This document shows, one piece after another, positions 10,362 through 29,665 of a DNA stretch of 40,338 nucleotides. The DNA is from Paracoccaceae bacterium. Lineage in GTDB: Bacteria; Pseudomonadota; Alphaproteobacteria; Rhodobacterales; Rhodobacteraceae. The stretch's first letter is position 1. Every line of letters starts with the position of its first letter. Below the pieces are notes generated by a model. The model made no database searches, was not told the DNA's origin, and saw nothing but the letters and a program-made list of their open reading frames with translations. The translations under genes were made by a program, and so were the position numbers. The stretch lies in contig JAIXZY010000077.1 in NCBI GenBank assembly GCA_027489355.1, positions 1 to 40,338 of the forward strand. Reading direction: 5' to 3'.

Positions 10362-10386
10362 GGAACCTTTCGGGCGTTCGCGGGTT
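10362..10386 (+). promoter_or_regulatory. EcfG-type promoter candidate for glgC-glgX
   Basis: GGAAC at 10362-10366 and GGTT at 10383-10386, separated by 16 bases. It has one mismatch to the EcfG consensus GGAAC-N16/17-CGTT. Transcription would begin near 10393, about 40 bases before the GTG start. Confidence 0.5.
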
Positions 10387-10431
10387 GAAGGGGCACTACC
10401 CGTCCCTTCCCAAAACCGAGCGAGGCCGACC

Positions 10432-11640
10432 GTGGGTATCTCCCCCGAAATGAAGGATACTGTCGCGATCGTGCTGGCCGGAGGCCAGGGTACCCGGCTT
10501 TGCGAGCTGACCGCCCGCGACTGCAAGCCGGCGCTGCCGTTCGCGCGGTTCCACCGGATCGTGGACTTCACCATGGCCTCGCTGGCACGGTCAGGGATCG
10601 GGCGGGTGATGGTCGCCACGCAATACCGGCCGACGACGCTGTCGGCCCATCTGCGCGAGGTCTGGGCGCCGGTCTGGCCGGACGGGGGGCTGATGCTGCG
10701 GGACGGCGGACAGGTCGAGGGCGGGTTTCGCGGCACGGCGGACGTGTTGCGGGCCAATGCAGCCGAGCTGGATGCGCTGGGGGCGCGTGAGGTGCTGGTG
10801 GTGGCGGCGGACCATGTCTATTCAATGGATTACGGCGGGTTCATTGCCGCACATCGCGAGAACGGTGCGCCCTTGACCCTGGCGGCGATGGCGGTCCTGC
10901 GCGAAGACGCTGGCCGCTTTGGAATTGTGACCGAAGGGCCGGGCCACCGGATCGCGGGCTTTGCCGAGAAGCCGGAAAAGCCGGCACCGATCTTCGGCGA
11001 CCCCATGCATTCGCTGGCGTCGATGGGGATCTATGTGATCGACTGGCCCTGGCTGCGCGGCGTTCTGTCGGATCCGAACGTGCTGGATTTCGGCGAGGAC
11101 GTGATCCCGTTGGCCGTGCACGGCGGCGAGGCGGCGGTCTGGCGCTGGGAGGGGTACTGGCGCGATGTGGGCACTCTGGACGGTCTGCGGGAAAGCTGGC
11201 TGGACTTCGAGGAGGGCCCGCCACCCTGCCGCAGGCCCTTCGTGCCGGGGATGAAGATCAGGATGCAGACCGCGACGCTGCCGCGCGACGGGTTCACCGC
11301 AAGCGTCAACCTGGGCGGGCTGCGGCTGATGTCTCCGCTCGTGGGCAGCACGGATCCGGGGCGCTGGACGGCGCTGGACCGGTCGGTGCTGATGCCGGGC
11401 GCGCGCGTGTCGCCGGGGGTGCGGCTGTCAAACGTGATCGTGGCGCCGAACACGGTGATCCCGCATGGCCTGTCGATCGGCGACGACCCCGAGGAGGACG
11501 CGCGGTGGTTCCGGGTGTCGGGAGAGACGACGCTTGTCAACTCGGCCATGCTGGCGCGACGGGGCGCGCTGCGGACGCCTGTGTTTTCGCTGTTCAACGG
11601 CGGCCCGTCGCTTACTCGCAAGGCGCAGCGGATACAATGA
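10432..11640 (+). CDS. glgC: Glucose-1-phosphate adenylyltransferase
   Basis: Makes ADP-glucose from ATP and glucose-1-phosphate for glycogen synthesis; 402 residues. Motifs present: the nucleotide-binding LAGGQGTRL, CKPALPF with the Lys equivalent to E. coli K39, RGTADV, DHVYSMDY, FAEKP with the substrate-site Lys, SMGIYV and YWRDVGT. The C-terminal beta-helix ends with the characteristic IGDDPEEDARWF. GTG at 10432 is preferred because GAGG lies 7 bases upstream; an ATG six codons later has no clear ribosome site. Its stop overlaps glgX by ATGA. No glgA, glgB or glgP is in the window. Confidence 0.93.
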   Translation: MGISPEMKDTVAIVLAGGQGTRLCELTARDCKPALPFARFHRIVDFTMASLARSGIGRVMVATQYRPTTLSAHLREVWAPVWPDGGLMLRDGGQVEGGFRGTADVLRANAAELDALGAREVLVVAADHVYSMDYGGFIAAHRENGAPLTLAAMAVLREDAGRFGIVTEGPGHRIAGFAEKPEKPAPIFGDPMHSLASMGIYVIDWPWLRGVLSDPNVLDFGEDVIPLAVHGGEAAVWRWEGYWRDVGTLDGLRESWLDFEEGPPPCRRPFVPGMKIRMQTATLPRDGFTASVNLGGLRLMSPLVGSTDPGRWTALDRSVLMPGARVSPGVRLSNVIVAPNTVIPHGLSIGDDPEEDARWFRVSGETTLVNSAMLARRGALRTPVFSLFNGGPSLTRKAQRIQ

Positions 11641-13679
11641 TGCGGGATCAGTCCGTCACCCTGTCCTTTGATGCCACCAAGGGCCGCCCCGACACCATCG
11701 GGGCGGTTTCCGATGGTGAGGGCACCAACTTCGCCCTGTTTTCCGAGAACGCCACCCGGGTCGAGCTGTGCCTGTACGATGAGGAGGGCAAGGTCGAGAC
11801 GGCGCGGCTGGATCTTCCCTCGATGGAGGGCGGCATCTGGTTTGGCTATCTGGCGGGCGTGGGGCCGGGCCAGGTCTATGGCTACCGGGTCCACGGTCCC
11901 TGGGCGCCCGAGGAGGGGCACCGGTTCAACCCGGCGAAGCTTTTGCTGGACCCCTATGCCCGTGAGCTGCGGGGCGAGCTGGTCTGGGACCCGGCGGTGT
12001 TTGGCCATACGGGCGATGACCTGACGCGGGACGATCGCGATTCCGCCGCCTTCGTGCCGAAGGCCGTGGTGGTGGACCCGGACTTCGACTGGAACGCCGA
12101 GGAGGCCCTCCGCCATCGCTGGGAGGAAACGCTGATCTGGGAGGCGCATCCGAAGGGCGCGACGATGCGGCATCCCGGGGTGGATGAAGCGGACCGGGGG
12201 TCGCTGCGCGGCATGGCATCGGATGCGGTGATCGCGCATCTGAAGCGCGTCGGCGTGACGGCGGTCGAGCTTTTGCCGATGCACGGGTTCCTGCATGACC
12301 AGTTCCTGCTGGACAAGGGACTGAGGAACTACTGGGGGTACAACACCCTGTCCTTCTTCGCGCCGCATCGGGCCTATCTGAAGACCGGCAAGGCCAGCGA
12401 GGTGAAAGAGGTCGTCCGCAAGCTGCACGCGGCGGGGATCGAGGTCATCCTGGACGTGGTCTACAACCACACCGCCGAGGGGTCGGAACTGGGGCCGACG
12501 CTGTCGTTCCGCGGGATCGACAACGCGTCCTATTACCTGCTCGCCGAAAACCGGCGGCACTGCTTCGACACCACCGGCTGCGGGAACACGCTGAACGTCG
12601 CGCATCCGATGGTGCTGCGGATGGTGATCGACAGCTTGCGCTACTGGGTGCAGGTGATGCACGTCGACGGCTTCCGCTTCGACCTGGCGTCGACCCTGGG
12701 GCGCGAGGCCGAGGGGTTCGAGCGCGAGGGATCCTTCTTCGCGGCGATCCGGCAGGACCCGGTGCTGGCCCAGGTCAAGCTGATAGCCGAGCCGTGGGAC
12801 ATAGGTGAGGGCGGCTATCAGGTCGGCGGCTTCCCCTTCCCGTTCCGGGAATGGAACGACAAGGCGCGGGACGACATGCGCGCCTTCTGGCGGCGCGATC
12901 CGGGGCTGAAGGGCGACCTCGCGCAGCGGCTGCTGGGGTCTCCGGTCCAGTTCGACCATTCGCAACGGCCGGCGACCAGTTCGATCAACTTCCTCGCGGC
13001 CCATGACGGCTTCACGCTGCGCGACGTGGTCAGCTACGACGGCAAGCACAACGAGGCGAACGGCGAGGACAACCGCGACGGCCATGACAACAACCTGAGC
13101 CACAATCTGGGCGTGGAGGGGCCGACCGATGACCCCGGCATCCTGGAGGCGCGGCACCGGCGGTCAAAGGCAATGCTGGCCACGCTGATGTTAAGCCAGG
13201 GTGTGCCCATGCTGCTGGCCGGCGACGAGTTCGGCCAGACCCAGGGCGGCAACAACAACACCTATGCCCAGGACAGCGAGATTTCGTGGCTGCACTGGGA
13301 AGCTGCCGACGAGCGGCTGGTCGAGGCGGTGGCTTCTCTGGTCGCCTTGCGGCGCGAGTTGTCCCTGCCCGACGCCCGCTTTGCCCGTGCTCCGGGTGAG
13401 GGCGAGGGGCCGGAGATCAGCTGGTGTCACGCGTCCGGCCCGATGGGCGAGGGCGACTGGGACAGCGACGGTCCGCTGGGGCTGCGCTACCACCGCGAGG
13501 GCGGGGACCTTTTGATCGTGTTGAACGCCGGGGATGATTCCGGTTTCTTGCTGCCCGACGGGACATGGCGGCGACGGCTGGACACCGCGCACGATCCTGT
13601 CGTGGTCGATAAGGTAGAGGCCGGCGAGATTTCCCTGGGTTGGCAATCGGTCTGCCTGTGGGAGGCGGCGGTCGGCTAG
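11637..13679 (+). CDS. glgX: Glycogen debranching enzyme GlgX
   Basis: GH13 alpha-1,6-glucosidase that removes limit-dextrin branches from glycogen; 680 residues, typical length. A CBM48-like N-terminal domain (about 15-120) precedes the (beta/alpha)8 barrel. The four GH13 regions are visible: DVVYNH (273-278), DGFRFD with the nucleophile D349, AEPWD with the acid/base E385, and AAHD with H456-D457. The start ATG 11637 overlaps the glgC stop as ATGA, followed by a second in-frame ATG. An in-frame extension back to 11505 lies inside glgC and is rejected. Pairing glgC and glgX in one transcript links glycogen building and breakdown. Confidence 0.94.
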   Translation: MMRDQSVTLSFDATKGRPDTIGAVSDGEGTNFALFSENATRVELCLYDEEGKVETARLDLPSMEGGIWFGYLAGVGPGQVYGYRVHGPWAPEEGHRFNPAKLLLDPYARELRGELVWDPAVFGHTGDDLTRDDRDSAAFVPKAVVVDPDFDWNAEEALRHRWEETLIWEAHPKGATMRHPGVDEADRGSLRGMASDAVIAHLKRVGVTAVELLPMHGFLHDQFLLDKGLRNYWGYNTLSFFAPHRAYLKTGKASEVKEVVRKLHAAGIEVILDVVYNHTAEGSELGPTLSFRGIDNASYYLLAENRRHCFDTTGCGNTLNVAHPMVLRMVIDSLRYWVQVMHVDGFRFDLASTLGREAEGFEREGSFFAAIRQDPVLAQVKLIAEPWDIGEGGYQVGGFPFPFREWNDKARDDMRAFWRRDPGLKGDLAQRLLGSPVQFDHSQRPATSSINFLAAHDGFTLRDVVSYDGKHNEANGEDNRDGHDNNLSHNLGVEGPTDDPGILEARHRRSKAMLATLMLSQGVPMLLAGDEFGQTQGGNNNTYAQDSEISWLHWEAADERLVEAVASLVALRRELSLPDARFARAPGEGEGPEISWCHASGPMGEGDWDSDGPLGLRYHREGGDLLIVLNAGDDSGFLLPDGTWRRRLDTAHDPVVVDKVEAGEISLGWQSVCLWEAAVG

Positions 13680-13680
13680 C

Positions 13681-13706
13681 GGAACCCTCGGGGCAGGGGT
13701 GGCGTT
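13681..13706 (+). promoter_or_regulatory. EcfG promoter, exact consensus, for the PPOX-like stress gene
   Basis: GGAAC at 13681-13685 and CGTT at 13703-13706 with a 17-base spacer, starting two bases after the glgX stop codon. Predicted start near 13714, about 30 bases before the next ATG. Confidence 0.75.
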
Positions 13707-13742: not shown

Positions 13743-14261
13743 ATGGCCCTTGTCAGCGACCACGAGAACACCCCCAATCCCCCCGCAATCCAGCCTATCG
13801 AGGCGGACCGCGTGTGGGAGATGATCAAGGCGATCGACATTGCCATGCTGGTCACCCACAGCGCGGAAGGTCCGCGCGGGCGGCCAATGTCCACGATCCC
13901 CACGCCGGAGAAGGGCGTGATCTACATCCTGACGGAAAGCGACAGCTCAGCGGCGCGCGACATCCGCGTCGATGGTTCCGTCTTCCTGGGCTATCAGGGT
14001 CGCGGGGACCATGTGGCGCTGGTCGGCAAGGCCACGGTCGACCCGGACAAGGGACTGGTCAAGGACCTGTGGAACCCCGGCGCGCAGGTATTCTGGCCGC
14101 AGGGGCCGGAAGTGCATGACGTGGTGACCCTGGTCATCGACCCCGGGCATGCCGATATCTGGGACGGACCGGGCCTGCTGCGCGGCATCGCCGAGATCGT
14201 CGCGGGCGCGGTCAAGGGCAAGAGCCCCGACCTTGGCACCCGGGGCGAGGCTGAACTGTGA
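13743..14261 (+). CDS. Pyridoxamine 5'-phosphate oxidase-like general stress protein
   Basis: 172-residue split-barrel protein resembling the general-stress-protein-26 branch of the PPOX-like family: HSAEGPRGRPMSTIP, a central ESDSSAARDI segment, then FLGYQGRGDHVALVGKATV. Members bind FMN, FAD or F420 and act in stress protection, but a specific reaction cannot be assigned. GGAG lies about 9 bases before the ATG. An exact EcfG-type promoter fills the short gap after glgX, so it is probably induced by the general stress response independently of glgCX. The next gene starts 30 bases downstream and may be co-transcribed. Confidence 0.82.
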   Translation: MALVSDHENTPNPPAIQPIEADRVWEMIKAIDIAMLVTHSAEGPRGRPMSTIPTPEKGVIYILTESDSSAARDIRVDGSVFLGYQGRGDHVALVGKATVDPDKGLVKDLWNPGAQVFWPQGPEVHDVVTLVIDPGHADIWDGPGLLRGIAEIVAGAVKGKSPDLGTRGEAEL

Positions 14262-14291: not shown

Positions 14292-15890
14292 ATGCGCGAT
14301 GAGGCCTCGCCGTTCCTGAACGTCGCCATCGTGGGCACCGGACCCACCGGCCTTTACACGCTGCACCATCTGCTGCAGTTCCCGCGCCCGCTGACCGTGA
14401 CCCTGTTCGAAGCCGGTGGGCTGGCGGGAGTCGGGTCGCCCTACCATCCCGAGACCACCAGTGTCTCGATGCTGGCCAACATCGCCAGCATCGAGATCCC
14501 GCCGCTGCAGGAAAGCTACCTCGACTGGCTGAACCGCCAGCCAGAGGCGATCCTGCAGGTCTATGGGGTGGACAGCAAAGCCCTGCATGACCGTCAGTTC
14601 CTGCCCCGGTTGCTGCTGGGGGCCTGGTTCCGCGACAGCCTGGAACGGATGGTCGAGGCGGGCCGGGCTGCCGGTCACCAGATCGCCCTGCGCGAGGGGG
14701 CTCAGGTCACCGACGTCGCGCCGCTGTCCGACGGCATCCGGCTGTGCTTCACCACTGGCGTGCGGGAGGAGAGCCTGATCTTCAGCCATGTGGTGCTGGC
14801 GACCGGGCATGTCTGGCCCGAGGATCCAAGCCAGGATTCCAGGCTGTTCGTGTCGCCCTGGTCCGGGCTGATTGAGGCCGAGATCCCGGCCGCGCGCGTA
14901 GGGGTGCTTGGCACCTCGCTGAGTGCGATCGACGCGGCGATGGCGGTGGCCTGCCAGCATGGCCGCTTCCCTCAGGGCGACGCGACCAGCTTCCAGCTGT
15001 CCCCGGGGTCCCAGGCGCTGCGGATCACGCTGATGTCGCGGCAGGGTCTCCTGCCGGAGGCAGACTTCTGGTGCCCTCTGCCCTATCAGCCTCTGTCCCA
15101 TTTTACGGAAGCTGCGCTTGCGCTGGCCCGGGAAGAAGGATCTGCAGGGCTTCTCGACCGGCTCTGGACCCTGTTTGCGCGCGAGATGGCCGCGGCTGAT
15201 CCGGGTTATGCCGCGCTGATCGGAATCGCGGAGCTGTCGCCGGAGGGTTTTGCCAAGGCCTATTTCGCGCCGCGGCTGGAAATCGATCCCTTCGTCTGGG
15301 CCGAGGCCAACCTGGTCCAGGTCGACCGGAATGCGGCAGCACGGCGAACGGTCGGGTGGCGCTATGCGATCCTGCGGATGCACGAGCCGATGGAAACGAT
15401 GGTCCCGTATCTGGACGAAACGGATCGTGCGCGATTTGATGCCCTGAAGCGGGTCTTCGTCGACAACTATGCGGCAGTCCCTCCGCAGTCGATCCGTCGG
15501 CTGCTGGCGCTGCATCGGGCCGGCGTGCTGGACGTGCTGCGGCTGGGCGAGGATTACGGGCTGGACCGCGACGGCGGGGTGACGCGGGTGCGTGCGGCGG
15601 ATGGAGGCGAGCACCGGTTCGACGTCTTGGTCGATGCCCGCGGACAGCGGGCACTTGGGGTGGCCGACCTGCCGTTTCCCGGCCTGCGGCAGCGGCTGGG
15701 GAACCGGGAGGGGCCGGTCCCCGTCACGGACAGCTTCGGCATAAGGGGCGCGGGAGAGGGGCGTCTGTTTCTTCCCGCCGCGCCCTACCTGTTGCACCGG
15801 ATGCCCTTCGCCCAGGGGATCACCGCCAGCCATGACATGGGTGCCACCGTCGCGGCGGCGGTGCTGGAACCGGCCACCGCCGCCGCCTGA
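14292..15890 (+). CDS. FAD/NAD(P)-binding protein (FAD_NAD_bind_9 type)
   Basis: 532-residue flavoprotein-like protein. The N-terminal dinucleotide fold has VAIVGTGPTGLYTLHHL, and the downstream LFEAGGLAGVGSPYHPETTSVSMLANI is typical of the PF13454 type. A second nucleotide-binding segment, VGVLGTSLSAIDAAMAVA, lies near residue 205. Relatives include stand-alone oxidoreductase-like proteins of unknown substrate. It follows the PPOX-like gene by 30 bases on the same strand and probably shares its EcfG promoter. It converges on the AI-2E-type gene with a 21-base gap. A flavin- or lysine-N-hydroxylase-like activity is conceivable but unsupported. Confidence 0.72.
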   Translation: MRDEASPFLNVAIVGTGPTGLYTLHHLLQFPRPLTVTLFEAGGLAGVGSPYHPETTSVSMLANIASIEIPPLQESYLDWLNRQPEAILQVYGVDSKALHDRQFLPRLLLGAWFRDSLERMVEAGRAAGHQIALREGAQVTDVAPLSDGIRLCFTTGVREESLIFSHVVLATGHVWPEDPSQDSRLFVSPWSGLIEAEIPAARVGVLGTSLSAIDAAMAVACQHGRFPQGDATSFQLSPGSQALRITLMSRQGLLPEADFWCPLPYQPLSHFTEAALALAREEGSAGLLDRLWTLFAREMAAADPGYAALIGIAELSPEGFAKAYFAPRLEIDPFVWAEANLVQVDRNAAARRTVGWRYAILRMHEPMETMVPYLDETDRARFDALKRVFVDNYAAVPPQSIRRLLALHRAGVLDVLRLGEDYGLDRDGGVTRVRAADGGEHRFDVLVDARGQRALGVADLPFPGLRQRLGNREGPVPVTDSFGIRGAGEGRLFLPAAPYLLHRMPFAQGITASHDMGATVAAAVLEPATAAA

Positions 15891-15911: not shown

Positions 15912-17744
15912 CTACTTCTCGAACGCCTGCGAGAAGAGGTCCTCCATCCTGCCCACGGCGAAGTCGGCAGATCCCTTCCGCGGAGGCGCGGCCTCGATCT
16001 CGGTCGGGGCCGACCAGTGGGCCAGGCCAAGCTGAACCCCGGGCAGGCGGCGGCGGATGTTGCGAATCTGCAGGTCGACCGAACCCCGTTGCGTGCCGTC
16101 GAGCGAAACCAGGATCAGCGTCTGGGGCTTGAAGTCCGAAACGCTGCGCGGAAGCGGCGCGCGGGGTGGAAGGGCCAACACCTCGGCCCCCTCGGCCCGC
16201 AGCGCCTGCGCCACCATCTGAGCCGCCGCTGCGTCCAGCCGGGTCGACGCGCCCATCACCGCAATGCGGCGGCCGACTCCGTCCAGCACCCCGTTCGCGA
16301 CCAGCGTCGTCGCGTCGGCGTCGGGGGAGGGTCCTTCGGCGGCAAGCGTCAGCTCTTCGTCGATCACGGTCTCCAGCTCGTCCGTCAGGGTCCAGGCGGC
16401 TGTCGCGATCCGGTGGGTCTGGTAGTCCGACAGAAGGCCCGCCGCGCGGTCGGACTGGGCGAGTGCCAGAGCCGGCAGCGCGGTCTTGTCATAGTAGTCG
16501 GCCAGGTAGTGCTTTGCGGTCGAGGCGGTGGCGGACTCGGTGAACTCGAAGGTGCGGCCGGCGAGGAGGCGGTCGTAAAGCCGGGCGGAATCGGCGAGAA
16601 CGGGCTGGTCCCCGAACATGATGGGGAAAAGCCGCAGGCTGGGAACGTGGTGGCCAATGACGACCAGGCAGACGGTCAGCGGCGTGGCGATGATCAGCCC
16701 CATCGGTCCCCAGAGCCAGGTCCAGAACATCGCCGAGACGATGACCGCCAGAGGCGAGACCCCGGTACGCTGGCCATAGAAGAACGGCTCGATGATGTTC
16801 GAGGTGGTGAATTCGACAACCAGGAACAGGCCGGCGGTCCAGAGGACAAGTGACCAGTCGGGCGACACGGCAAAGGCCATGAGCAGCGGCAGGATGGCCG
16901 AGATGGCCGAGCCGATATAGGGCACGAAGCGCATCACCAGGGTCACAAGACCGAAGAACAGCGCGTTCGGCACGCCGATCAGCCAGAGACCAAGCCAGAT
17001 CGGGACGGCGTAGATCACGTTCACCAGAAGCTGCGCGAGGAGGTAGGTGGACACGCGCGATCCGGCCTCGGCCAAAAGGCGCGAGGTGGCGAGGATGTTC
17101 GACCCGCCGATCAGCTGAACCAGCCGGTCGCGCAGGGTGGCACGCTCGATCAGGGCGAAGATGACGACGACGAAGATCAGGCCGAAGATTCCGACCGGGG
17201 CAAGGGCAGGCAGGATCACGTCGGTCAGCCATTCGCGGACACCGGGCTGGTCCACCACCTCGACCTTCATCGTGGCTTCGTCCGTCGCCGGACCTGACTG
17301 GGCTGCGAGCCGTTCCGAGATGTTCTCGACCATGCCCTGAAGGTGTTCGATGACCCGACTGTCGGTGCTGAAATCCAGAAGCGTGTCGATCTTGGTCAGG
17401 ACGTTGCCCTGGTACTGGGGCAGGTTGGCGCCGATCTGGCTTAGCTGGTAGGCCAGCACCAGGACGAAGGCCGCCACCAGCGACCCTGCGGCGACGACGG
17501 TGATGATGACCGCAGTCAGGTCTCGGAGACCCAGGCGGCGCAGGTAATTGACCAACGGCGTCAGGATGAAGGCGAAAAGCATCCCCAGCGCCAGAGGCAG
17601 GAAAAGGTCCTTCGCGACATACAGGATGGCGCAGACCACGGCGATGGTCGCCAGAGTGGTCAGCGATACGATGGAATGGCCGGTGTCCGCCCACAGGTCT
17701 TCACGATCCCGCCGCGGGGCGGCGGTGTCTTCGGTTTCCGGCAT
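15912..17744 (-). CDS. AI-2E family transporter with long C-terminal cytoplasmic domain
   Basis: Inner-membrane protein of about 610 residues. Residues about 25-365 hold the eight-helix AI-2E/YdiK-type domain, with the conserved run GLVTLVMRFVPYIGSAIS, then EPFFYGQRTGVSPLAVI and GPMGLIIATPLTVCL. Family members export autoinducer-2, ions or osmolytes; the substrate is unknown here. The last 240 or so residues are an extra soluble region with an alpha/beta part near the end (RRIAVMGAS, LILVSLDG) that resembles a Rossmann or B12-binding-like fold but lacks the DxHxxG motif. ATG 17744 is preferred; ATG 17756 is also possible but its GGAAGG abuts it. An exact EcfG promoter lies upstream. Confidence 0.85.
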   Translation of the reverse strand: MPETEDTAAPRRDREDLWADTGHSIVSLTTLATIAVVCAILYVAKDLFLPLALGMLFAFILTPLVNYLRRLGLRDLTAVIITVVAAGSLVAAFVLVLAYQLSQIGANLPQYQGNVLTKIDTLLDFSTDSRVIEHLQGMVENISERLAAQSGPATDEATMKVEVVDQPGVREWLTDVILPALAPVGIFGLIFVVVIFALIERATLRDRLVQLIGGSNILATSRLLAEAGSRVSTYLLAQLLVNVIYAVPIWLGLWLIGVPNALFFGLVTLVMRFVPYIGSAISAILPLLMAFAVSPDWSLVLWTAGLFLVVEFTTSNIIEPFFYGQRTGVSPLAVIVSAMFWTWLWGPMGLIIATPLTVCLVVIGHHVPSLRLFPIMFGDQPVLADSARLYDRLLAGRTFEFTESATASTAKHYLADYYDKTALPALALAQSDRAAGLLSDYQTHRIATAAWTLTDELETVIDEELTLAAEGPSPDADATTLVANGVLDGVGRRIAVMGASTRLDAAAAQMVAQALRAEGAEVLALPPRAPLPRSVSDFKPQTLILVSLDGTQRGSVDLQIRNIRRRLPGVQLGLAHWSAPTEIEAAPPRKGSADFAVGRMEDLFSQAFEK

Positions 17745-17784: not shown

Positions 17785-17810
17785 AACGTGCTCCCGGGAA
17801 CGGCGGTTCC
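17785..17810 (-). promoter_or_regulatory. EcfG promoter, exact consensus, for the AI-2E-type gene
   Basis: On the minus strand GGAAC (17810-17806) and CGTT (17788-17785) are separated by 17 bases. Predicted start near 17778, 20-35 bases before either candidate ATG. Confidence 0.7.
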
Positions 17811-17845: not shown

Positions 17846-17870
17846 GGAACTTGCGCGGGCGTTCCGCGTT
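17846..17870 (+). promoter_or_regulatory. EcfG promoter, exact consensus, for the small unknown gene
   Basis: GGAAC at 17846-17850 and CGTT at 17867-17870, 16-base spacer. Predicted start near 17877, about 25 bases before ATG 17903. It diverges from the AI-2E-type promoter 35 bases away. Confidence 0.75.
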
Positions 17871-18720: not shown

Positions 18721-18746
18721 AACTTCCCCAAGCGGGCAGAGGTTCC
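18721..18746 (-). promoter_or_regulatory. EcfG-type promoter candidate for the DUF1328 gene
   Basis: Minus strand GGAAC (18746-18742), 17-base spacer, AGTT (18724-18721); one mismatch in the -10 element. Predicted start about 50 bases before the ATG. Confidence 0.5.
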
Positions 18747-22656: not shown

Positions 22657-23228
22657 AATCCGGCTGCGGCCGTGCGCAACACGACTGCCTGAGTTGCCCC
22701 GTCGGTTCCCGAGAACATGTCCTCTCCGTCTTCCAGATGCAGCAGTTCTGCCAGACGTTTGCGGGCGCGGCTAGCCCGGCTTTTCACCGTACCGATGGCG
22801 ACACCCATCATCTCGGCCGCCTCTTCGCAGGAAAAGCCCGAAGCGCCGACCAGGATCAGAACCTCGCGGTGTTCGGGGCTGAGCTTGTCGAAGGCACGCT
22901 GGAATTCCTGCAAGGCCAGCCGGCCGTCGTGGGCGGGCTTGACCGAAAGCGTCGCCGCATGGGCGCCGTCGCTGTCCTGCACCTCTCGGCGGATCTTGCG
23001 CAGCGAGGAGTAGAAGGTGTTGCGCAGGATGGTGAAGAGCCAGGCGTCGAGGTTGGTCGCGGGGTCGAACTTCTCGATGTTCGACCAGGCCTTCAGGATC
23101 GTGTCCTGAACCAGATCATCGGCCTTGGACGCATCCCGCGCCAGGCTGATGGCAAAGGCCCGCAGTTTCGGGATGGCCGAAGCCAGCCGATCGCGCGGAT
23201 CCAGGGAACCCGACAGGGCTGCGGTCAT
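22653..23228 (-). CDS. ecfG: ECF sigma factor EcfG (general stress response)
   Basis: 191-residue extracytoplasmic-function sigma factor of the EcfG (ECF15) type. Region 2 includes RAFAISLARDASKADDLVQDTILKAW and the DAWLFTILRNTFYS helix; region 4 includes LSPEHREVLILVGASGFSCEEAAEMMGVAIGTVKSR. EcfG directs RNA polymerase to GGAAC-N16/17-CGTT promoters and is held inactive by NepR until PhyR-phosphate titrates NepR away. The assignment rests on sequence plus position: its ATG overlaps the nepR stop (ATGA) and its stop overlaps the kinase start. Multiple EcfG-type promoters in the window, including its own, imply autoregulation. Confidence 0.95.
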   Translation of the reverse strand: MTAALSGSLDPRDRLASAIPKLRAFAISLARDASKADDLVQDTILKAWSNIEKFDPATNLDAWLFTILRNTFYSSLRKIRREVQDSDGAHAATLSVKPAHDGRLALQEFQRAFDKLSPEHREVLILVGASGFSCEEAAEMMGVAIGTVKSRASRARKRLAELLHLEDGEDMFSGTDGATQAVVLRTAAAGF

Positions 23229-23401
23229 TCTGCGCCGCCCTCGGTCGCACCCGCCTTGCTTTTCAGCTGCGCCAGAAGATCCTTGAAGCGATCCGGCAGC
23301 TCTTCGTTCAGCGTGGCGGTGTAAACCCTTCTCAGGTTCTCGTCGATCTGCTCGCGGATGGCTTGCCGTTTTGGCGCATCCTCTTCTTTTTCCTTCTTCA
23401 T
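23225..23401 (-). CDS. nepR: Anti-sigma factor NepR
   Basis: 58-residue protein, MKKEKEEDAPKRQ at the start, then the NepR core IDENLRRVYTATL followed by ELPDRFKDLLAQL. The core forms the two helices that bind either EcfG (inhibiting it) or phosphorylated PhyR. The acidic, disordered ends are normal for the family. It was found by reading the minus strand between ecfG and phyR. ATG 23401 is preceded by a GA-rich stretch with no strong ribosome site. The TGA overlaps the ecfG ATG. Position, size and core motif make the call firm. Confidence 0.95.
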   Translation of the reverse strand: MKKEKEEDAPKRQAIREQIDENLRRVYTATLNEELPDRFKDLLAQLKSKAGATEGGAE

Positions 23402-23430: not shown

Positions 23431-23455
23431 AACTCACGCAGACCTTCCCGGTTCC
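23431..23455 (-). promoter_or_regulatory. Second EcfG-type promoter candidate for nepR-ecfG
   Basis: Minus strand GGAAC (23455-23451), 16-base spacer, AGTT (23434-23431); one mismatch. It would give a 25-base leader for nepR, against about 90 bases from the distal promoter. Confidence 0.45.
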
Positions 23456-23493: not shown

Positions 23494-23518
23494 GGAACTG
23501 AACGCGGCTTTTGGCGTT
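23494..23518 (+). promoter_or_regulatory. EcfG promoter, exact consensus, for phyR
   Basis: GGAAC at 23494-23498, 16-base spacer, CGTT at 23515-23518. Predicted start near 23525, about 32 bases before the phyR ATG. It overlaps a mirror-image promoter on the other strand. Confidence 0.8.
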
Positions 23519-23525
23519 TGGTTCC
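23501..23525 (-). promoter_or_regulatory. EcfG promoter, exact consensus, for nepR-ecfG-kinase
   Basis: Minus strand GGAAC (23525-23521), 16-base spacer, CGTT (23504-23501). It shares 18 bases with the phyR promoter, so each promoter's -10 lies inside the other's spacer. Confidence 0.75.
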
Positions 23526-23556: not shown

Positions 23557-24366
23557 ATGTTCGCACAGGAAGCGGTCGACCATTCGGCGACGGTAGCCCG
23601 TCACCTGCCGTACCTGCGGCGCTATGCACGGGCCCTGACCGGCAACCAGACGAGCGGCGACCAGTACGCGGTGGCGGTGCTTGAGACGATCATCGCCGAA
23701 CCAGCGATGCTTTCAACCCATGCGGACCCCAAGGTTTCCCTGTTCTCGGTATTCCATTCGATCTGGTCCACCTCGGGCGCGCCGGTCGCCGATGCGGACG
23801 ACCAGCTGTCCGGCGCCGCGCAGGCGCATATGGCGGGGCTGACGCTGAACTCTCGCGAGGCACTGCTGCTGAACACCGTCGAGGGCTTTGACCTGGACCA
23901 GGTGGCCGAAATCATGGGCATCGACCGGTCCGAGGCGAAGCATCTGGTCGACGTGGCCGTCCAGGAGATGGAGCGGTCGGTCCGCGGGTCGGTCCTGGTG
24001 ATCGAGGACGAGGCGATCATCGCGATGGACATCGTGGCCATCGTCGAGGGAATGGGACATCGCGTTACCGCCAATGCCCGCACCCACAGCGAGGCGGTGG
24101 AAATGGCTGCGGCAGAAAAGCCGGACCTGATCCTTGCCGACATCCAGCTGGCCGACAATTCCTCGGGGATCGATGCGGTCAACGACATCCTGGCCCAATT
24201 CGGCAACATTCCGGTGATCTTCATCACCGCCTTCCCCGAACGCCTGCTGACCGGAGAACGGCCCGAACCGGCCTTCCTGATCAACAAGCCCTATACCGAA
24301 GAACAGGTCCGCTCGGCCGTCAGCCAGGCGATGTTCTTCTCGTCCACGGCGACCCTGCGGGCCTGA
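23557..24366 (+). CDS. phyR: Response regulator PhyR (EcfG mimic plus receiver)
   Basis: 269-residue anti-anti-sigma regulator. Residues 1-140 are a sigma-like domain imitating EcfG (LNSREALLLNTVEGFDLDQVAEIMGIDRSEAKHL is the region-4 mimic). Residues 145-265 are a receiver with acidic residues E150-D152, phospho-acceptor D195 in LILADIQLAD, T224 and K244. Phosphorylation opens the protein so that the sigma-like part captures NepR and frees EcfG. Start ATG 23557 has GGGAG 8 bases upstream; the longer in-frame extension to 23371 overlaps nepR and the promoters and is rejected. It diverges from nepR-ecfG. Confidence 0.96.
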   Translation: MFAQEAVDHSATVARHLPYLRRYARALTGNQTSGDQYAVAVLETIIAEPAMLSTHADPKVSLFSVFHSIWSTSGAPVADADDQLSGAAQAHMAGLTLNSREALLLNTVEGFDLDQVAEIMGIDRSEAKHLVDVAVQEMERSVRGSVLVIEDEAIIAMDIVAIVEGMGHRVTANARTHSEAVEMAAAEKPDLILADIQLADNSSGIDAVNDILAQFGNIPVIFITAFPERLLTGERPEPAFLINKPYTEEQVRSAVSQAMFFSSTATLRA

Positions 24367-24375: not shown

Positions 24376-24400
24376 GGAACCGCGCGGCCCGCGGCGGGTT
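24376..24400 (+). promoter_or_regulatory. EcfG-type promoter candidate for the phospholipase-D gene
   Basis: GGAAC at 24376-24380, 16-base spacer, GGTT at 24397-24400; one mismatch, the same variant as upstream of glgC. The predicted start is about 20 bases before GTG 24427. Confidence 0.5.
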
Positions 24401-24426: not shown

Positions 24427-26010
24427 GTGGTCCAGGCTGTGCGACATCTTCCCCATCCCGTCGAGCCGCCGGTCGAGATTCTCGTCACGGCGGCCGAAGC
24501 CTATCCGGCGCTGGAACGCGCCTTCCTGTCGGTCAAACGCGAGATCGTGGCGGGGTTCCGGGTGTTCGACCTGAAAACCCGCCTCCGTTCCCCCGAGGCG
24601 CTGGCGGTGGGCAAAACCTGGTTCGACCTGCTGATTCACACCTTGAGGCGCGGGGTGGAAGTGCGGATCGTACTGGCCGACTTCGATCCTGTCGCGCGGC
24701 CCCGGCTGCACCGCGCCACCTGGCGGACCGTGCGAATGTTCTGGGCGGCGGCCGAGATGGCGGGGCCAGGGGCGAAGCTGACCGTGGTGCCGTCGATGCA
24801 TTCGGCCGTGGCCGGGATCTGGCCGCGGCTGCTGTTCTGGCCGGTCGTCAAGTCGCGCCTGGGCCGCGTCGCGGGCTGGTTGCGCCGCCAGGTGGAATCG
24901 CACCGGATGACCGCCCTGCGCGAGATGCCGGGGGTGGAGCGGATGCTGGTCGCCAAGGACCGGATGCCGCGCCCGCGTCGGTTCCTGGTGCCTCCGCTTT
25001 ATCCGGCCACCCACCACCAGAAGCTGGCGGTGTTCGATGGCCGGCGGCTCTATATCGGGGGGCTGGACCTGGACGAACGCTTCTACGACACGCCCGAGCA
25101 CCAACAGCCCGGACACGAAACCTGGCATGACGTGCAACTGATGTTGCAGGGGCCGGTGGCGGGGGACGCGCGGGCACATCTTCTGAGCTTTCTCGACATC
25201 ATCTCGGCCACGGCCGAGCCGGGTGAACCCGCGCCCGCACGTGCCGGGTACCGCTTCGTCCGCACCCTGTCCCGCCGACGCAGACGAGGGGCGTGGCGGG
25301 TGATCTCTCCCGAACCCGCGGTCAACGAGATCGAGGCAGCGCACCTTGCCGCGGTCGCCGGGGCCGAACGGCTGATCTATGTCGAGACCCAGTATTTCCG
25401 CGACCGGCGGCTGGCCCGGCGGCTGGCCGAGGAAGCGCGCCGCAAACCCGAGCTGCGGATGATCCTGATCCTGCCCGCAGCACCTGACGATGTGGCATTC
25501 GAGGGTTCGACCGGGCTGGATGCGCGGCTGGGCGAGTTCCTGCAGGCCAAGTGCCTGCGTATCCTGCGCCGGGGCTTCGGGCGGCGGCTGTTCGTGGGCG
25601 GGGCTGCCCAGCCGCGCCGGACGCGGGCCAAGGGGAGGGCGCAGCTTCGGGGCGCGCCGCTGGTCTATATCCACGCCAAGGTCAGCATCTTCGACGACAG
25701 CCTGGCCGTTGTCTCATCGGCCAACCTGAACGGGCGGTCGCTGCGCTGGGACACGGAAGCGGGGGTGGTGCTTTCGGACACGGATGACGTGGCGCGGTTG
25801 CGGCAACGGCTCATGGCGCATTGGCTGCCCAAAGGCGCGGCAGCGGACTTCTTCGACCCCGTGCGAGCCCTCCCTGCCTGGTGGGCACTGGCCGCGCGCA
25901 ATGCCAAGTTGCCGCCGGACAAGCGGCGGGGCTTCCTGCTGCCCTATGACCTGAAGTCTGCCGAGGACTTCGGTCGCGCCTTCCCCCTGGTCCCGGACGA
26001 AATGGTCTGA
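24427..26010 (+). CDS. Phospholipase D-like protein with two HKD motifs
   Basis: 527-residue member of the PLD superfamily, which includes phospholipases and cardiolipin synthases. First HKD: H197, K199, D204 in THHQKLAVFDG, followed by LYIGGLDL. Second HKD: IHAKVSIFDD near residue 415, followed by SSANLNGRS. Both halves of the bilobed active site are therefore intact. No signal peptide or N-terminal membrane anchor is seen, unlike classical Cls synthases, so a soluble or peripheral phospholipase is likely. GTG 24427 has GGAGG 4 bases upstream. It sits between phyR and the PRC-barrel gene, with an EcfG-like promoter; membrane remodelling during stress is a fair inference. Confidence 0.85.
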   Translation: MVQAVRHLPHPVEPPVEILVTAAEAYPALERAFLSVKREIVAGFRVFDLKTRLRSPEALAVGKTWFDLLIHTLRRGVEVRIVLADFDPVARPRLHRATWRTVRMFWAAAEMAGPGAKLTVVPSMHSAVAGIWPRLLFWPVVKSRLGRVAGWLRRQVESHRMTALREMPGVERMLVAKDRMPRPRRFLVPPLYPATHHQKLAVFDGRRLYIGGLDLDERFYDTPEHQQPGHETWHDVQLMLQGPVAGDARAHLLSFLDIISATAEPGEPAPARAGYRFVRTLSRRRRRGAWRVISPEPAVNEIEAAHLAAVAGAERLIYVETQYFRDRRLARRLAEEARRKPELRMILILPAAPDDVAFEGSTGLDARLGEFLQAKCLRILRRGFGRRLFVGGAAQPRRTRAKGRAQLRGAPLVYIHAKVSIFDDSLAVVSSANLNGRSLRWDTEAGVVLSDTDDVARLRQRLMAHWLPKGAAADFFDPVRALPAWWALAARNAKLPPDKRRGFLLPYDLKSAEDFGRAFPLVPDEMV

Positions 26011-26063: not shown

Positions 26064-26088
26064 GGAACTCATCCTTTTGCGCGACGTT
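26064..26088 (+). promoter_or_regulatory. EcfG promoter, exact consensus, for the PRC-barrel gene
   Basis: GGAAC at 26064-26068, 16-base spacer, CGTT at 26085-26088. Predicted start near 26095, about 50 bases before GTG 26144. It occupies the otherwise empty 133-base gap after the PLD gene. Confidence 0.8.
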
Positions 26089-26143: not shown

Positions 26144-27145
26144 GTGAAAGCTCTGCTTCTTACAACCGCTCTGGCGGCCGGCTTCGCATTGCCCGCGATG
26201 GCGCAGGACGCCGCCTCGCCGTTCCAGACTGAAGCGGCGGGTCCGTCGATCTCGGCTTCCGATGTGATCGGCGCCCGCATCTACGCCAGCGAAGCCGCCC
26301 TTGACGCCGACGCTTACAGCGGCGTGCAGGAAGGCTGGGAAGACATCGGCGAAGTCAACGACATCATCCTGGGCCGCGACGGCACGGTCGACGCGGTTCT
26401 GGTCGACATCGGCGGCTTCCTTGGCATCGGCGAGCGCCAGGTGGCGGTCGACATGTCGGCGCTGAAGGTCGTGCAGGACGATGCGACCGACGCCGATGAC
26501 TGGTTCCTGGTGCTGCAGTCCGACCGGGCCACGCTGGAAGGCGCGCCGGAGTACGTGATGCCGGGCGCGGCGGCGACCGATGCCGATGCCAATGCCAATG
26601 CGACTGCCACGGACGCGACCGCAACGGCCGATGCGGACGCAAACGCTGATGCTGCGGCGACCGACACCACCACGCAAGGCACCGCAACCGACGAGGCCGT
26701 GGCCGATTCCACCACGACCGAGGGCACCGCAGGTACCGGCAATGCCACCGACACCACGATGCCGGCGGACGACACGGCTGCTGCCGACGCCGATGCGGCG
26801 GCGACCGCTCCGGCCGTTGCCGCGGACGGCACCATGACCCTGCCGGAAGGCTATACCGCCGTGGGGCCCGAAACGCTGACCGCCGAGCTGCTGACTGGCG
26901 CCGATGTTCGCGATCCGACAGACGCCTCCATCGCCGAAGTCTCTGACCTGGTGCTGACCGCCGAGGGTCAGGTGACCGACGTCGTTCTGGACGTGGGCGG
27001 CTTCCTTGGCATCGGCGCGCGCGCTGTGGCCATTCCGATGGACCGCCTGACCGTTGCCCAGACCGAAGGCGGCGCGGTGCGGATCTGGGTCAACATGACC
27101 AAGGAAGAGCTGGAAGCCCTGCCCGAGTACAACAAGGCCGGATAA
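26144..27145 (+). CDS. Secreted protein with two PRC-barrel domains
   Basis: 333 residues. A signal peptide (1-21, ending PAMAQ) predicts export to the periplasm. Two PRC-barrel-like domains follow: the first at about 35-135 (VIGARIYASEA, VDAVLVDIGGFLGIGERQVAVDMSAL) and the second at about 235-325 (VTDVVLDVGGFLGIGARAVAIPMDRL). The repeated DVGGFLGIG block suggests internal duplication. They are joined by about 85 residues rich in Ala, Thr and Asp, likely disordered. PRC barrels elsewhere bind proteins, as in photosynthetic reaction-centre H subunit and RimM; the role here is unknown. Start GTG 26144 has AGGAGA 5 bases upstream. An exact EcfG promoter precedes it. Confidence 0.87.
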   Translation: MKALLLTTALAAGFALPAMAQDAASPFQTEAAGPSISASDVIGARIYASEAALDADAYSGVQEGWEDIGEVNDIILGRDGTVDAVLVDIGGFLGIGERQVAVDMSALKVVQDDATDADDWFLVLQSDRATLEGAPEYVMPGAAATDADANANATATDATATADADANADAAATDTTTQGTATDEAVADSTTTEGTAGTGNATDTTMPADDTAAADADAAATAPAVAADGTMTLPEGYTAVGPETLTAELLTGADVRDPTDASIAEVSDLVLTAEGQVTDVVLDVGGFLGIGARAVAIPMDRLTVAQTEGGAVRIWVNMTKEELEALPEYNKAG

Positions 27146-27189
27146 CCAACGGTCGGCCCTGCGTTAGCCCTTTTCGCAGGTGACGGCCC

Positions 27190-27227
27190 GGCCCGCATCC
27201 GCTTCGGCGGGTGCGGGCCACTTATTT
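27190..27227 (+). terminator. Terminator with UUCG tetraloop after the PRC-barrel gene
   Basis: A 13-bp stem (27190-27202 with 27207-27219, one wobble pair) closed by a C(TTCG)G tetraloop, followed by ACTTATTT. It also lies just beyond the convergent kinase stop, so it may work in both directions. Confidence 0.8.
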
Positions 27228-28859
27228 CCCGGGCCGGTTCAGCGTCGGGTCCAGCGGGAAAGAAAGGCGGATCTCCAACCCCTCGTCCGTGTAGTCGCGG
27301 GTCAGCTTGCCGGACAGTTCGCCCTTCAGGCTGGCCTCGATCAGCCGCGAACCGAAGCCGGTCCCGGTTCCGTTCTGCGGCTCCAGCCCTGCGGTCCGCT
27401 CTTTCCACAGAAGGGCAATGTGCGGCGCATCGGGTCCGGGCTGAACGGTCCAGCGGATGCTCAATCCCGCGCCCCCGGCCGAAAGGCCGCCGTACTTCAT
27501 CGCATTGGTCACCAGCTCATGCGCGACCAGCGCGAAGGCATGGGCCTGACGTTCGTCAAGCCGGACCGGAGGGCCGTCCAGCAAATGCTCGACCTCGGTC
27601 GAATCGAGGCTTTGCTGCAGCTCTTTCACCAGAACGGCACGCAGATCGGCCTGAGCTGCGGCCGTGCCGGCCAGAATCTCCTGGACAGCGGACATGGCTT
27701 GCAGTCGGGCATCGAAAGCGGCGGTGAAGGCCTTCACATCGGTCGCGCCGCGGGCACTTTGCCGGGCGATCGACTGGATGCGGGCAATGTGGTTCTTTAT
27801 ACGGTGCTTCATCTCCTGCAGCAGAAGCTCGCGGTAGTCGGCCTCGCGTGCGGCGGCGGCCGCAACGGCCCGGGCCTGGATCGCCTCTTGCTGGCGTGCC
27901 GCCACGGCATAGGCAGCGGCGGCGGCAAAGAGAAGCGAGATCAGGCCAAGCAGCACGCTGCTGGCATGCCCGACCGGGCTTGCGCTGGTCGCCTCGGGCC
28001 AGACGTCGAAGACCCAAGAGCGGCCCAGGATCCGGACTTCCCGGCTGTGATGCAGCGTCTGCGGGGCCGGATCCGCGCTGTTGTCGAACAGGGGGGTCGC
28101 GGCGTCCATGACGTCGACCACACGCAGCACCACCGGCAGGGGCGGTCCGACGGAAAGTGCCGCGCGGATCAGGTCGCCGCCGCGAAACGGAGCGTAGACG
28201 AAGCCCGCGACCGGGGCCGCACCCGTCCCGGGATGGTGCGGACCGTTGCGGAACGGAAGATAGATCAGAAACCCGGTCTGCTTCTGCCTGGTGATTTCCT
28301 GCACCAGTTCCACCGGGCCGGTCATCTCGGCGTCGCCGCTTTCAATGGCCCGGTCCATCGCCGCGCGACGGATCGGGTCGGCGTACATGTCAAAGCCCAG
28401 CGCAGCCCGGTTGCGTTCGTTCTCGGGCTCCAGCAGGACGATCGGCGTCCGCCAGGGCTGGTCCGTCTCGGGATGAACCGGCACGTCCAGACCATAGTGG
28501 CCGCGCACCTCGCCGGTCGCGATGGCGGTGTCGGCGCTGGGGATCATCCGGGCAAAGCCGATGCCCTGGACGCCCGAGAGTTCGTCCACGATGTCGACCG
28601 AGGACAGAAAGCGCAGGAACTCGTCCCGCGCGATACCGCCTCGAACCGCTGACAACAGGCCGCGGGCCGCGCGCAGGACGACGACGTGCTGCTGAAGCCG
28701 CGCCACGACCCGGTCGACGGCCAGGTCGGCCGAACGTTCGAACTCGGCTGCCACGCGGCGCTCGGCGCCGGTGTAGACCGCGACCGTCACCGCAACGCCC
28801 GGCAGGAACGCCAGGAGAAAGACCAGCTTTGGCAGATGGGCTTCCAGAAACGCCTTCAC
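27222..28859 (-). CDS. CHASE-domain HWE-family sensor histidine kinase
   Basis: 545-residue membrane kinase. TM1 at about 12-30; a CHASE sensor at about 75-260 with LGFDMYADPIRRAAMDRAIESGDAEMTGPV; TM2 at about 300-320. The kinase core has the HWE-type box LLLQEMKHRIKNHIARIQSIARQS with acceptor H352, an intact N-box ELVTNAMKYGG, and WKERTAG carrying the WxE motif. HWE and HisKA_2 kinases are the known class of PhyR kinases, so this is a candidate input to the GSR. GTG 28859 has GGAG 7 bases upstream. It follows the crp gene by 24 bases, so both likely use the EcfG promoter at 29641-29665. Confidence 0.9.
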   Translation of the reverse strand: MKAFLEAHLPKLVFLLAFLPGVAVTVAVYTGAERRVAAEFERSADLAVDRVVARLQQHVVVLRAARGLLSAVRGGIARDEFLRFLSSVDIVDELSGVQGIGFARMIPSADTAIATGEVRGHYGLDVPVHPETDQPWRTPIVLLEPENERNRAALGFDMYADPIRRAAMDRAIESGDAEMTGPVELVQEITRQKQTGFLIYLPFRNGPHHPGTGAAPVAGFVYAPFRGGDLIRAALSVGPPLPVVLRVVDVMDAATPLFDNSADPAPQTLHHSREVRILGRSWVFDVWPEATSASPVGHASSVLLGLISLLFAAAAAYAVAARQQEAIQARAVAAAAAREADYRELLLQEMKHRIKNHIARIQSIARQSARGATDVKAFTAAFDARLQAMSAVQEILAGTAAAQADLRAVLVKELQQSLDSTEVEHLLDGPPVRLDERQAHAFALVAHELVTNAMKYGGLSAGGAGLSIRWTVQPGPDAPHIALLWKERTAGLEPQNGTGTGFGSRLIEASLKGELSGKLTRDYTDEGLEIRLSFPLDPTLNRPGK

Positions 28860-28883
28860 TCGTCGCTCCGCACGCCGCCGGAC

Positions 28884-29618
28884 TTACAGGATTGGTCGCA
28901 CATCGTCCTTTTCCATGTCCAGACCCGCGACATTGCAGAGCCGAGCGTAATCGTGAATCGCCAGCCGGCGGCCCAGGATTTCGGCCAGCCCCTCGCGCCG
29001 AAGGGCGACAATCACCCGGTTGGTGTGCACCACCGAAAGTCCAAGCGCATCCGAAAGATCCTGCTGCCGGAAGGGGAAGGGGACTGTGCCGTCCGTTTCC
29101 ATGCGCAAGGCCACCAGTCGGCGCCAGATGCGGACAAGTGCCCAGGCAACGCGCTGCGTGGCGTCGCGCTGGCCAAGGGTTGCGACGGTTTCGCCCAGAA
29201 AGTGTTCCTCGACGGCGGCGATCCAGGTCAGGTCATAGGCGCGCCCGGGATGCGAGGTGAACAGATCCCAGACCCGGTTGCGCGGAAAGACGCACAGCAC
29301 CACTTCCGTAACGGCCGTAACCGTGTGCCGCGCTTCGCCCATCAGGCCGGATTGCAGGCCGATCAGGTCGCCGGGAAAGACGAAGCTGATGACCTGACGC
29401 CTCCCGTCCTCCATAAGCACAGAGCGGACGGCCATGCCGGACAGCACGGTGAACAGCGACCCCGAGCCCTGACCCTGCGTCAGGATTTCTCCTCCGATAG
29501 GGATTTGCAGTTCGCCCGCCTTGAACCGACGCTGGAAAGCGAGCTCGTCCTCGGTCATGGGAACAAACAGCGGCCGCCGACGAAGCGGGCAGTCGAGACA
29601 GTCCGTCACTGCGGTCAT
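28884..29618 (-). CDS. Crp/Fnr family transcriptional regulator
   Basis: 244-residue regulator. A cyclic-nucleotide-binding-like beta-roll spans about 20-140 (GGEILTQGQGSGSLFTVLSGMAVRS, FPGDLIGLQSGLMG), a dimer helix follows, and a winged helix-turn-helix lies at about 165-230 (QQDLSDALGLSVVHTNRVIVALRREGL). The N-terminal DCLDCPLR gives two Cys, but the complete four-Cys set for an FNR iron-sulfur cluster is not apparent, so oxygen sensing cannot be claimed. ATG 29618 has GGAGG 6 bases upstream, better than the TTG or ATG-like options further out. First gene of the crp-kinase operon, with an exact EcfG promoter. Confidence 0.9.
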   Translation of the reverse strand: MTAVTDCLDCPLRRRPLFVPMTEDELAFQRRFKAGELQIPIGGEILTQGQGSGSLFTVLSGMAVRSVLMEDGRRQVISFVFPGDLIGLQSGLMGEARHTVTAVTEVVLCVFPRNRVWDLFTSHPGRAYDLTWIAAVEEHFLGETVATLGQRDATQRVAWALVRIWRRLVALRMETDGTVPFPFRQQDLSDALGLSVVHTNRVIVALRREGLAEILGRRLAIHDYARLCNVAGLDMEKDDVRPIL

Positions 29619-29640
29619 TGTGATCCTCCCCAAGGAAATC

Positions 29641-29665
29641 AACGCAGGTTAATGCGCGGCGTTCC
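29641..29665 (-). promoter_or_regulatory. EcfG promoter, exact consensus, for the crp-kinase operon
   Basis: Minus strand GGAAC (29665-29661), 16-base spacer, CGTT (29644-29641). Predicted start near 29634, giving a leader of about 16 bases before ATG 29618. Confidence 0.75.

Follow-up and report, generated by a model that had tools for sequence, protein, structure and literature searches.

The 40,338-nucleotide stretch of DNA analyzed here (the window; G000:C7:1-40338, from a 4.21 Mb genome in 81 contigs) comes from a Tabrizicola-type bacterium, within the Rhodobacteraceae (broad sense) of the Alphaproteobacteria, and carries the core locus of its general stress response, with genes for the ECF sigma factor EcfG, the anti-sigma factor NepR and the regulator PhyR. 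Around this core, candidate EcfG promoters are crowded into an island that, judged by promoter sequence, stands out as the densest stretch of a larger EcfG regulon that is otherwise mostly scattered, and similar crowding around ecfG is found in the relatives compared. We give this reading as a whole a probability of roughly 85%. The PhyR-NepR-EcfG kind of system is already known; the new part is its organization.

HWE/HisKA_2 kinases phosphorylate PhyR, PhyR sequesters NepR, and EcfG with RNA polymerase starts transcription at GGAAC-N16/17-CGTT promoters. In the window, phyR (23557..24366, plus strand) encodes a sigma-like domain joined to a receiver (PF22029 at 2e-24, PF22233, PF00072), whose translation contains the LADIQ aspartate and the NKP lysine. 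On the minus strand, nepR (23225..23401; PF18557 at 7e-16) lies upstream of ecfG (22653..23228; PF04542, PF08281, PF22029), with which it overlaps by 4 bp, and ecfG is followed downstream on the same strand by HK1, a HisKA_2/HWE sensor kinase gene (20956..22656; PF07568 at 1e-12, PF07536 at 3e-6). The 80 EcfG relatives kept are 49-92% identical and their named records all come from Alphaproteobacteria; the nearest named ones are labeled Tabrizicola, Rhodobacter and Xinfangfangia. Going by knowledge of the family, the two kinases encoded here (HK1 and HK2, below) would be among those that phosphorylate PhyR, PhyR would draw NepR off EcfG by partner switching, as in its known counterparts, and EcfG with RNA polymerase would start at the island promoters. 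By sequence, its targets would include phyR, nepR-ecfG, the glycogen genes and the genes for the pyridoxamine 5'-phosphate oxidase-like (PNPOx-like), AI-2E, U161, DUF1328, phospholipase D-like (PLD) and PRC-barrel proteins and, less surely, the helical protein-holin-DUF3618 and crp-HK2 operons.

Sites were called exact when they matched GGAAC-N16/17-CGTT; a looser class allowed at most one mismatch, the C/GGTT form was counted separately, and the motif read backwards (the reversed pattern) served as a control. Genes were called by codon usage, with a simple caller for which the window served as training set, and a site just upstream of such a start was taken to be in promoter position. The window holds eight exact sites, against a mean of 0.50 in 100 dinucleotide shuffles (largest 4). 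Seven of them, exactly those listed in the original prediction, have no coding base under the site and a gene start 33-100 bases downstream, and they span 15,984 bp. The eighth, previously unlisted (37715-37739, minus strand), is coding, being antisense within a proline racemase gene, and was judged to be chance. At most one mismatch is found in 35 sites of the window, 12 of which are in promoter position, all within 10362-29665 and none in the flanks; these are the same twelve EcfG-type promoters as first proposed.

Exact promoters precede the PNPOx-like gene (13681..13706, plus), the AI-2E gene (17785..17810, minus), U161 (17846..17870, plus), phyR (23494..23518, plus), nepR-ecfG (23501..23525, minus) and the PRC-barrel gene (26064..26088, plus); a candidate before crp-HK2 (29641..29665, minus) is the weakest of the exact sites, at a distance of 83 bases with the caller's start and 22 with an upstream ATG. 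The motif scan further yielded EcfG-type promoters of GGTT form before glgC-glgX (10362..10386, plus) and the PLD gene (24376..24400, plus). Since GGTT is part of the consensus for some authors (C/GGTT; excerpts of PMC12148442 and PMC4814048), both are consensus sites under that definition. One mismatch occurs in a probable promoter of DUF1328 (-10 AGTT; 18721..18746, minus), a possible promoter of the helical protein-holin-DUF3618 operon (-10 CATT; 18806..18830, plus) and a second nepR-ecfG promoter (-10 AGTT; 23431..23455, minus). According to excerpts of PMC7083833, a CATT -10 box is transcribed in vitro at a lower level in Sphingopyxis granuli. A scan of the window for sigma-70 promoters found 2, with 1.2 expected.

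The whole genome contains 87 exact sites, compared with 73 reversed ones, and many single sites elsewhere would therefore be chance. Outside the window, 30 of 79 exact sites are in promoter position, against 4.8% for random placement in the same stretches; around these outside sites the reversed pattern occurs six times, once in promoter position. Likely exact promoters thus number about 37 genome-wide, 7 in the island (about 16 kb, about 0.4% of the genome) and 30 elsewhere, so that the island is not the whole regulon. It is far denser than the rest of the genome by the density test proposed with the original prediction: 87 sites scattered at random over the genome never gave more than 6 per 16 kb in 5000 draws, and the runner-up 16 kb has three promoter-position sites (C36 region). 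A Pfam family was assigned at 0.001 to 22 of the 30 outside targets and to none of the other 8. They include Ku, Top1B, cyclopropane synthase, DUF72, TspO, DUF2231, DUF3309, DUF899 and OmpA proteins, an HWE kinase and two LuxR-type regulators, among which we take Ku, Top1B, cyclopropane synthase, DUF72, DUF899, DUF2231, HWE kinase and OmpA to be classical stress types. Position, target types and the conservation described below support the view that the sites behave as real EcfG promoters. The C36 region itself carries a second EcfG-like sigma gene (L199:4386-4856, G000:C36 at about 107.8-108.3 kb; PhyR_sigma2 match at 2e-15), whose neighbors encode DUF892, two Ku proteins, a methylpurine-DNA glycosylase and LigD; 14.5 kb of this region contain three exact EcfG sites.

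Conservation was followed in 32 genomes of the genus (this one and 31 congeners), of which 20, this one included, carry ecfG (orthologue cut-offs E <=1e-70 for ecfG and E <=1e-40 for phyR). Among these 20, and given as exact sites/C-or-G GTT sites/orthologues, upstream counts were 19/19/20 for both nepR and phyR, 14/15/16 for AI-2E, 11/14/14 for U161, 9/9/11 for PRC, 8/8/9 for PNPOx and 2/3/3 for glgC, with an n of only 3. DUF1328 (6/9/16; at most one mismatch in 16/16) and PLD (1/7/13) reach about half in the C/GGTT form. The ecfG row (13/13/20) re-counts nepR promoters, because ecfG follows nepR. By conserved consensus promoter, glgC, PNPOx, AI-2E, U161 and PRC are thus predicted members of the EcfG regulon, as are DUF1328 and PLD in about half of the genomes. 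In the same genomes, neither exact nor C/GGTT sites were found upstream of MltA, Tim44, FxsA, glgX, FAD, holin, DUF3618, HK1, HK2, the receiver (0/8), coxM, coxS or coxL, and sites with at most one mismatch were also absent from MltA, Tim44, FxsA, coxS, coxL, glgX, holin and DUF3618; HK2 has a one-mismatch site in 2/11 and coxM in 1/10. For the reversed control, the count was one at each of three genes (helical protein, ecfG, phyR) and zero elsewhere. Most of the sites are conserved, in up to 20 genomes, but that of crp is not. Some islands are incomplete: G029 (L031-L032) keeps core and kinase only, parts are missing in G020 and G001, and contig ends truncate several loci. At another place on the G029 contig, FxsA has as its neighbor a DUF1328-like match that carries an EcfG site (L169:6121-6339).

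Crowding around ecfG was also found outside the genus. We compared 80 ecfG loci from named records, including flanks of at most 10 kb and with groups assigned from record titles; many of the 20 Tabrizicola-like loci come from the same genomes as the congeners above. Exact sites per 10 kb numbered 3.16 in the 20 Tabrizicola-like loci, 2.88 in the 9 loci of other Rhodobacteraceae (broad sense) and 2.51 in the 51 remaining loci, with reversed controls of 0.42, 0.19 and 0.17, and promoter position was occupied by 100/113, 41/46 and 193/233 of the sites, respectively. For 18 named genomes with whole-genome counts, 105 sites fell within 10 kb on either side of ecfG, where 5.9 were expected (75 against 5.4 with the core stretch left out). 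The original prediction had regarded the island as an exception to the scattered arrangement of such regulons; each of the 18 genomes in fact exceeds its own expectation near ecfG (weakest P 0.015, genome sizes rounded). In successive 2-kb bins from 0-2 to 8-10 kb, density declines from 6.53 through 3.89, 2.92 and 0.97 to 0.28 per 10 kb. Among the congeners, G007 has 7 of its 71 sites within 11.2 kb of the ecfG locus, in its densest 16 kb, and G022 has 8 of 67 within 8.1 kb. Sites identified by motif thus appear crowded from Rhodobacteraceae to the kin of Devosia and Mesorhizobium, falling to near background by about 8-10 kb, and the impression of a stress island becomes a measured pattern with a clear null: a regulon densest around its own sigma gene in the relatives tested. 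The literature searched, which included few subscription journals, contained no statement of crowding around ecfG; this is not proof that it is unpublished.

A second feature of the organization is the way in which the two core promoters interleave. The phyR and nepR-ecfG promoters occupy the same 32 bp on opposite strands as the nearly symmetrical GGAAC-NN-AACG ... CGTT-NN-GTTCC, with a 7-base offset, and each is exact in 19/20 genus genomes. The offset is 7 in 15/20 genus genomes and holds in G007 and G028, whose two spacers both measure 17 rather than 16. Among the named loci, with exact motifs only, it was found in 14/20 Tabrizicola-like and 6/9 other Rhodobacteraceae loci (20/29 in sum, with one further locus at offset 6) and in 0/51 others; within the loci compared, the interleaved two-way promoter is seen only in Rhodobacteraceae. 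Given this offset, the shared promoter probably serves one direction at a time, and as two polymerases would hardly fit together on the shared DNA, the phyR and nepR-ecfG arms should compete. The second nepR-ecfG site, which lies nearer to nepR than the shared one, is exact at the equivalent place in 14/20 genus genomes. The interleaved promoter thus offers a small, testable circuit element. In some congeners, but not in the window genome, nepR contains an exact EcfG motif on the plus strand, directed towards phyR; this motif lies in coding sequence and may reflect coding constraint, chance or a further phyR promoter.

The crowding most likely arises, we infer, from genes that depend on a losable regulator being kept, gained and lost alongside it. 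A more far-reaching version, which we advance tentatively, holds that ecfG centers a neighborhood of distance-decaying promoter density that is rebuilt with different genes in each family, with dependents selected near the regulator and the response gained or lost as a unit; in Rhodobacteraceae, a two-way promoter with a single seat would then couple phyR, the activator arm, with nepR-ecfG, the inhibitor-sigma arm. An alternative, which we doubt, is ordinary local autoregulation, in which EcfG controls its own operon and neighbors, and the neighborhood reflects old shared ancestry with no selection for crowding. ECF sigma factors frequently regulate the locus that encodes them, gene order is kept across most of the genus, and the G029 core stands without a crowd, all of which fit this explanation. 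About 55% of ECF sigma factors are predicted to be autoregulated (excerpts of the review PMC8103513). On the other hand, G007, G028, Gemmobacter and others have a rearranged gene order and strand but retain similar families, with motifs, close to ecfG, and the neighbor set varies between loci, which is unexpected under frozen ancestry. In G007 and G028, for example, matches to AI-2E, DUF1328, holin, helical protein, PLD and Crp lie near ecfG in a different order and strand, with motifs.

Presence of the core genes varies within the genus. An ecfG orthologue (71-92% identical) is present in 19/31 congeners besides the window genome, one of them seemingly decayed, and phyR has the same distribution, so that the two are present or absent jointly in all 32 genomes. 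Among the 12 congeners in which they are absent, 7 are at least 90% complete. These 12 retain other ECF genes, including EcfG-like paralogues of about 40% identity in G002 and G009, and therefore lack the core locus but not every EcfG-like gene. In T. flagellatus (G024, L057-L058), the locus is reduced to ecfG, nepR and phyR between FxsA and coxM, and a map of 30 kb around it showed no target gene of the island; the C-terminal part of ecfG is out of register and phyR has an internal stop, while the shared promoter is intact, and the stress core is apparently in decay. In G009, a contiguous stretch spans the FxsA-coxM interval without the island (L151:4749-9688; assembly 59% complete) and is occupied instead by unrelated metabolic genes, comprising a cyclase-like gene, a MarR regulator gene and a pair for a ferredoxin oxidoreductase and a TPP enzyme. 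A three-protein tree of 23 of the 25 genus genomes that are at least 90% complete (G011 and G016 were left out, their rows being mostly empty) requires 3 changes, and one of all 32 genomes, with weak branches and partial assemblies, requires 7. For the 23-genome set, the approximately unbiased (AU) test does not reject a grouping of the 7 genomes without ecfG into one clade (p 0.085); repeated independent losses by tree were consequently set aside, and losses were rested on synteny in T. flagellatus and G009. The locus is variously kept, lost or perhaps replaced among close relatives, which makes Tabrizicola a natural system in which to study the costs and benefits of the general stress response.

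The EcfG-PhyR pair of G007 and G028 branches outside the other congeners (AU p 0.0066 against one clade, for a group named after the tree was seen), which suggests transfer of the pair in these two genomes, the tree being built from two short proteins. This displacement with its shuffled gene order, the patchy presence within the genus and the absence between the same flanks in G009 would suit a mobile genomic island with the general stress response as cargo, as the original prediction had entertained. We consider such an island improbable and have rejected it: G+C is the same in the island (0.668) as in the left (0.670) and right (0.672) flanks, the window has no tRNA, and the window genes scanned, all in their own frame apart from the two flank genes at 7540-8124 and 34931-35818, gave no integrase or transposase family. 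Moreover, the EcfG-PhyR and three-protein trees give much-alike groups for the window genome's clade, which indicates vertical descent there. Co-inheritance, the other proposal of the original prediction, is partly supported, as ecfG and phyR occur jointly and U161 in carriers only; the decay in T. flagellatus, the G009 absence between the same flanks and the seemingly different descent of the G007/G028 pair argue further for it, and the G029 core without targets argues against it. The overall interpretation offered there is thus partly supported: the local concentration of EcfG promoters is real, conserved and shared well beyond the genus, and it marks no separate kind of system. The explanation by chance, as matches to a short motif recognized post hoc in G+C-rich DNA, could appeal to the 87 exact against 73 reversed sites and to the 49 of 79 outside sites away from promoter position, but with 7/8 window sites in promoter position against 4.8% at random, at most 6 sites per 16 kb in 5000 random draws and sites conserved at orthologues, it is refuted for the cluster as a whole and has a negligible probability, although single sites (crp, helical protein) could be chance.

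Several points weigh against a scattered regulon that is densest, and crowded with true promoters, around ecfG. The genome-wide excess over the reversed control is small, and this control is a rough yardstick, because it is commoner than the motif in 29/31 congeners; a comparison of motif counts between ecfG carriers and non-carriers was dropped, as the control count differs between these groups too. The site of the helical protein is poorly conserved (0/1/16; at most one mismatch in 8/16), as is that of crp (1/1/10, the sole exact one being in the window genome; at most one mismatch in 3/10), and HK1, which was treated as internal to its operon, shows a one-mismatch site in 6/19. The conservation counts are not independent, because the genus genomes are related, and crowding is not universal, as G029 has an intact core with none of the island's targets within the 30 kb mapped. 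The 18 genomes were hand-picked from 80 close EcfG relatives, among which there is no Caulobacter or Sphingomonas record, and the neighbor families in distant loci are low-identity tblastn matches that may be paralogues. Finally, the promoter activity of all EcfG sites is deduced from their sequence.

Among described systems, the alphaproteobacterial PhyR-NepR-EcfG locus (ECF15 group) likewise combines the three core proteins with an HWE/HisKA_2 kinase beside ecfG and, in excerpts of PMC4814048, has phyR and nepR-ecfG pointing away from each other, both under EcfG promoters. The locus described here differs in that nine more units have candidate sites, doubtful in two cases, within 13 kb to the left and 6.5 kb to the right, and in its interleaved core promoters, which lie side by side in the known locus. 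In Rhodobacter sphaeroides, RSP_1271-1274 similarly comprise a kinase, a sigma factor, a small NepR-like protein and phyR, with a downstream Crp-Fnr gene; the parts of PMC5830050 available describe no promoter cluster there, unlike here. Rubellimicrobium thermophilum (GSR/GSR'; excerpts of PMC12148442) shares predicted GGAAC-N16-17-C/GGTT promoters and an extra HWE kinase, but has two loci with phyR and ecfG duplicated, whereas here one full set is accompanied by the lone EcfG-like paralogue at C36. The EcfG regulon of Sphingopyxis granuli, 79 units defined by expression, likewise has GGAAC-N16-CGTT sites with variable -10 boxes and includes ku-ligD; the excerpts of PMC7083833 contain no statement on chromosomal crowding.

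The remaining genes of the window were assigned mainly by Pfam. To the left lie MltA, Tim44-like and FxsA genes, followed on the plus strand by a glgC-like nucleotidyl transferase gene (10432..11640; PF00483 at 3e-39), a glgX-like CBM48/alpha-amylase family gene (11640..13679; PF02922, PF00128), the PNPOx-like gene (13743..14261; PF16242 at 4e-27) and a gene for an FAD-NAD(P)-binding protein (14292..15890; PF13454), which is found at the locus only in the window genome among the 24 loci mapped by tblastn (4 from outside the genus, several cut by contig ends). The minus strand encodes the AI-2E family transporter (15912..17744; PF01594 at 1e-43) and the small DUF1328 protein (18501..18662; PF07043 at 4e-17). 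Next, on the plus strand, come the helical protein (18906..19574), for which Pfam gives only a sub-threshold apolipoprotein match in place of the earlier label "DUF883-like", a holin-X family membrane protein (19571..19993; PF07332 at 2e-20) and a DUF3618-like protein (19986..20906; PF12277 at 9e-4, under the cut-off). Right of the core are the PLD gene (24427..26010, plus; PF13091, PF00614), a gene for a protein with two PRC-barrel stretches (26144..27145, plus; PF05239), the CHASE-HWE sensor kinase gene HK2 (27222..28859, minus; PF03924 at 2e-42, PF07536 at 4e-19) and a Crp/Fnr regulator gene (28884..29618, minus; PF00027, PF13545); a three-gene molybdenum-flavin dehydrogenase set (coxM, coxS, coxL) lies to the right of the degenerate receiver described below.

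Regulon membership provides predicted roles for the U161, DUF1328, PRC-barrel and PNPOx-like genes. U161 (17903..18388, plus), a predicted short Rossmann protein of 161 aa with no Pfam family, occurs in 16/32 genus genomes, namely 16/20 ecfG carriers and 0/12 others. Its structural model (predicted local distance difference test score (pLDDT) 86) best matches short-chain-dehydrogenase-type proteins (top E 7e-7; template modeling scores of 0.58-0.74 on the query among the 50 matches listed), and U161 is accordingly predicted to resemble a truncated short-chain dehydrogenase with a Rossmann fold. The usual motifs of short-chain dehydrogenases, the glycine-rich TGxxxGxG and the catalytic YxxxK, were not seen in an alignment of 14 sequences. 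A degenerate stand-alone receiver of 121 aa (29721..30086, plus), with no EcfG site, is modeled in a receiver-like fold (pLDDT 78) with structural matches that include SdrG and PhyR; in an alignment of 8 sequences, no aspartate ends strand 3 and S/T replaces the lysine before PF, so that the phosphoacceptor is missing. Single-domain receivers are known in the general stress response (excerpts of PMC5964349 and PMC6599016). The receiver gene is divergent from the Crp-CHASE kinase operon.

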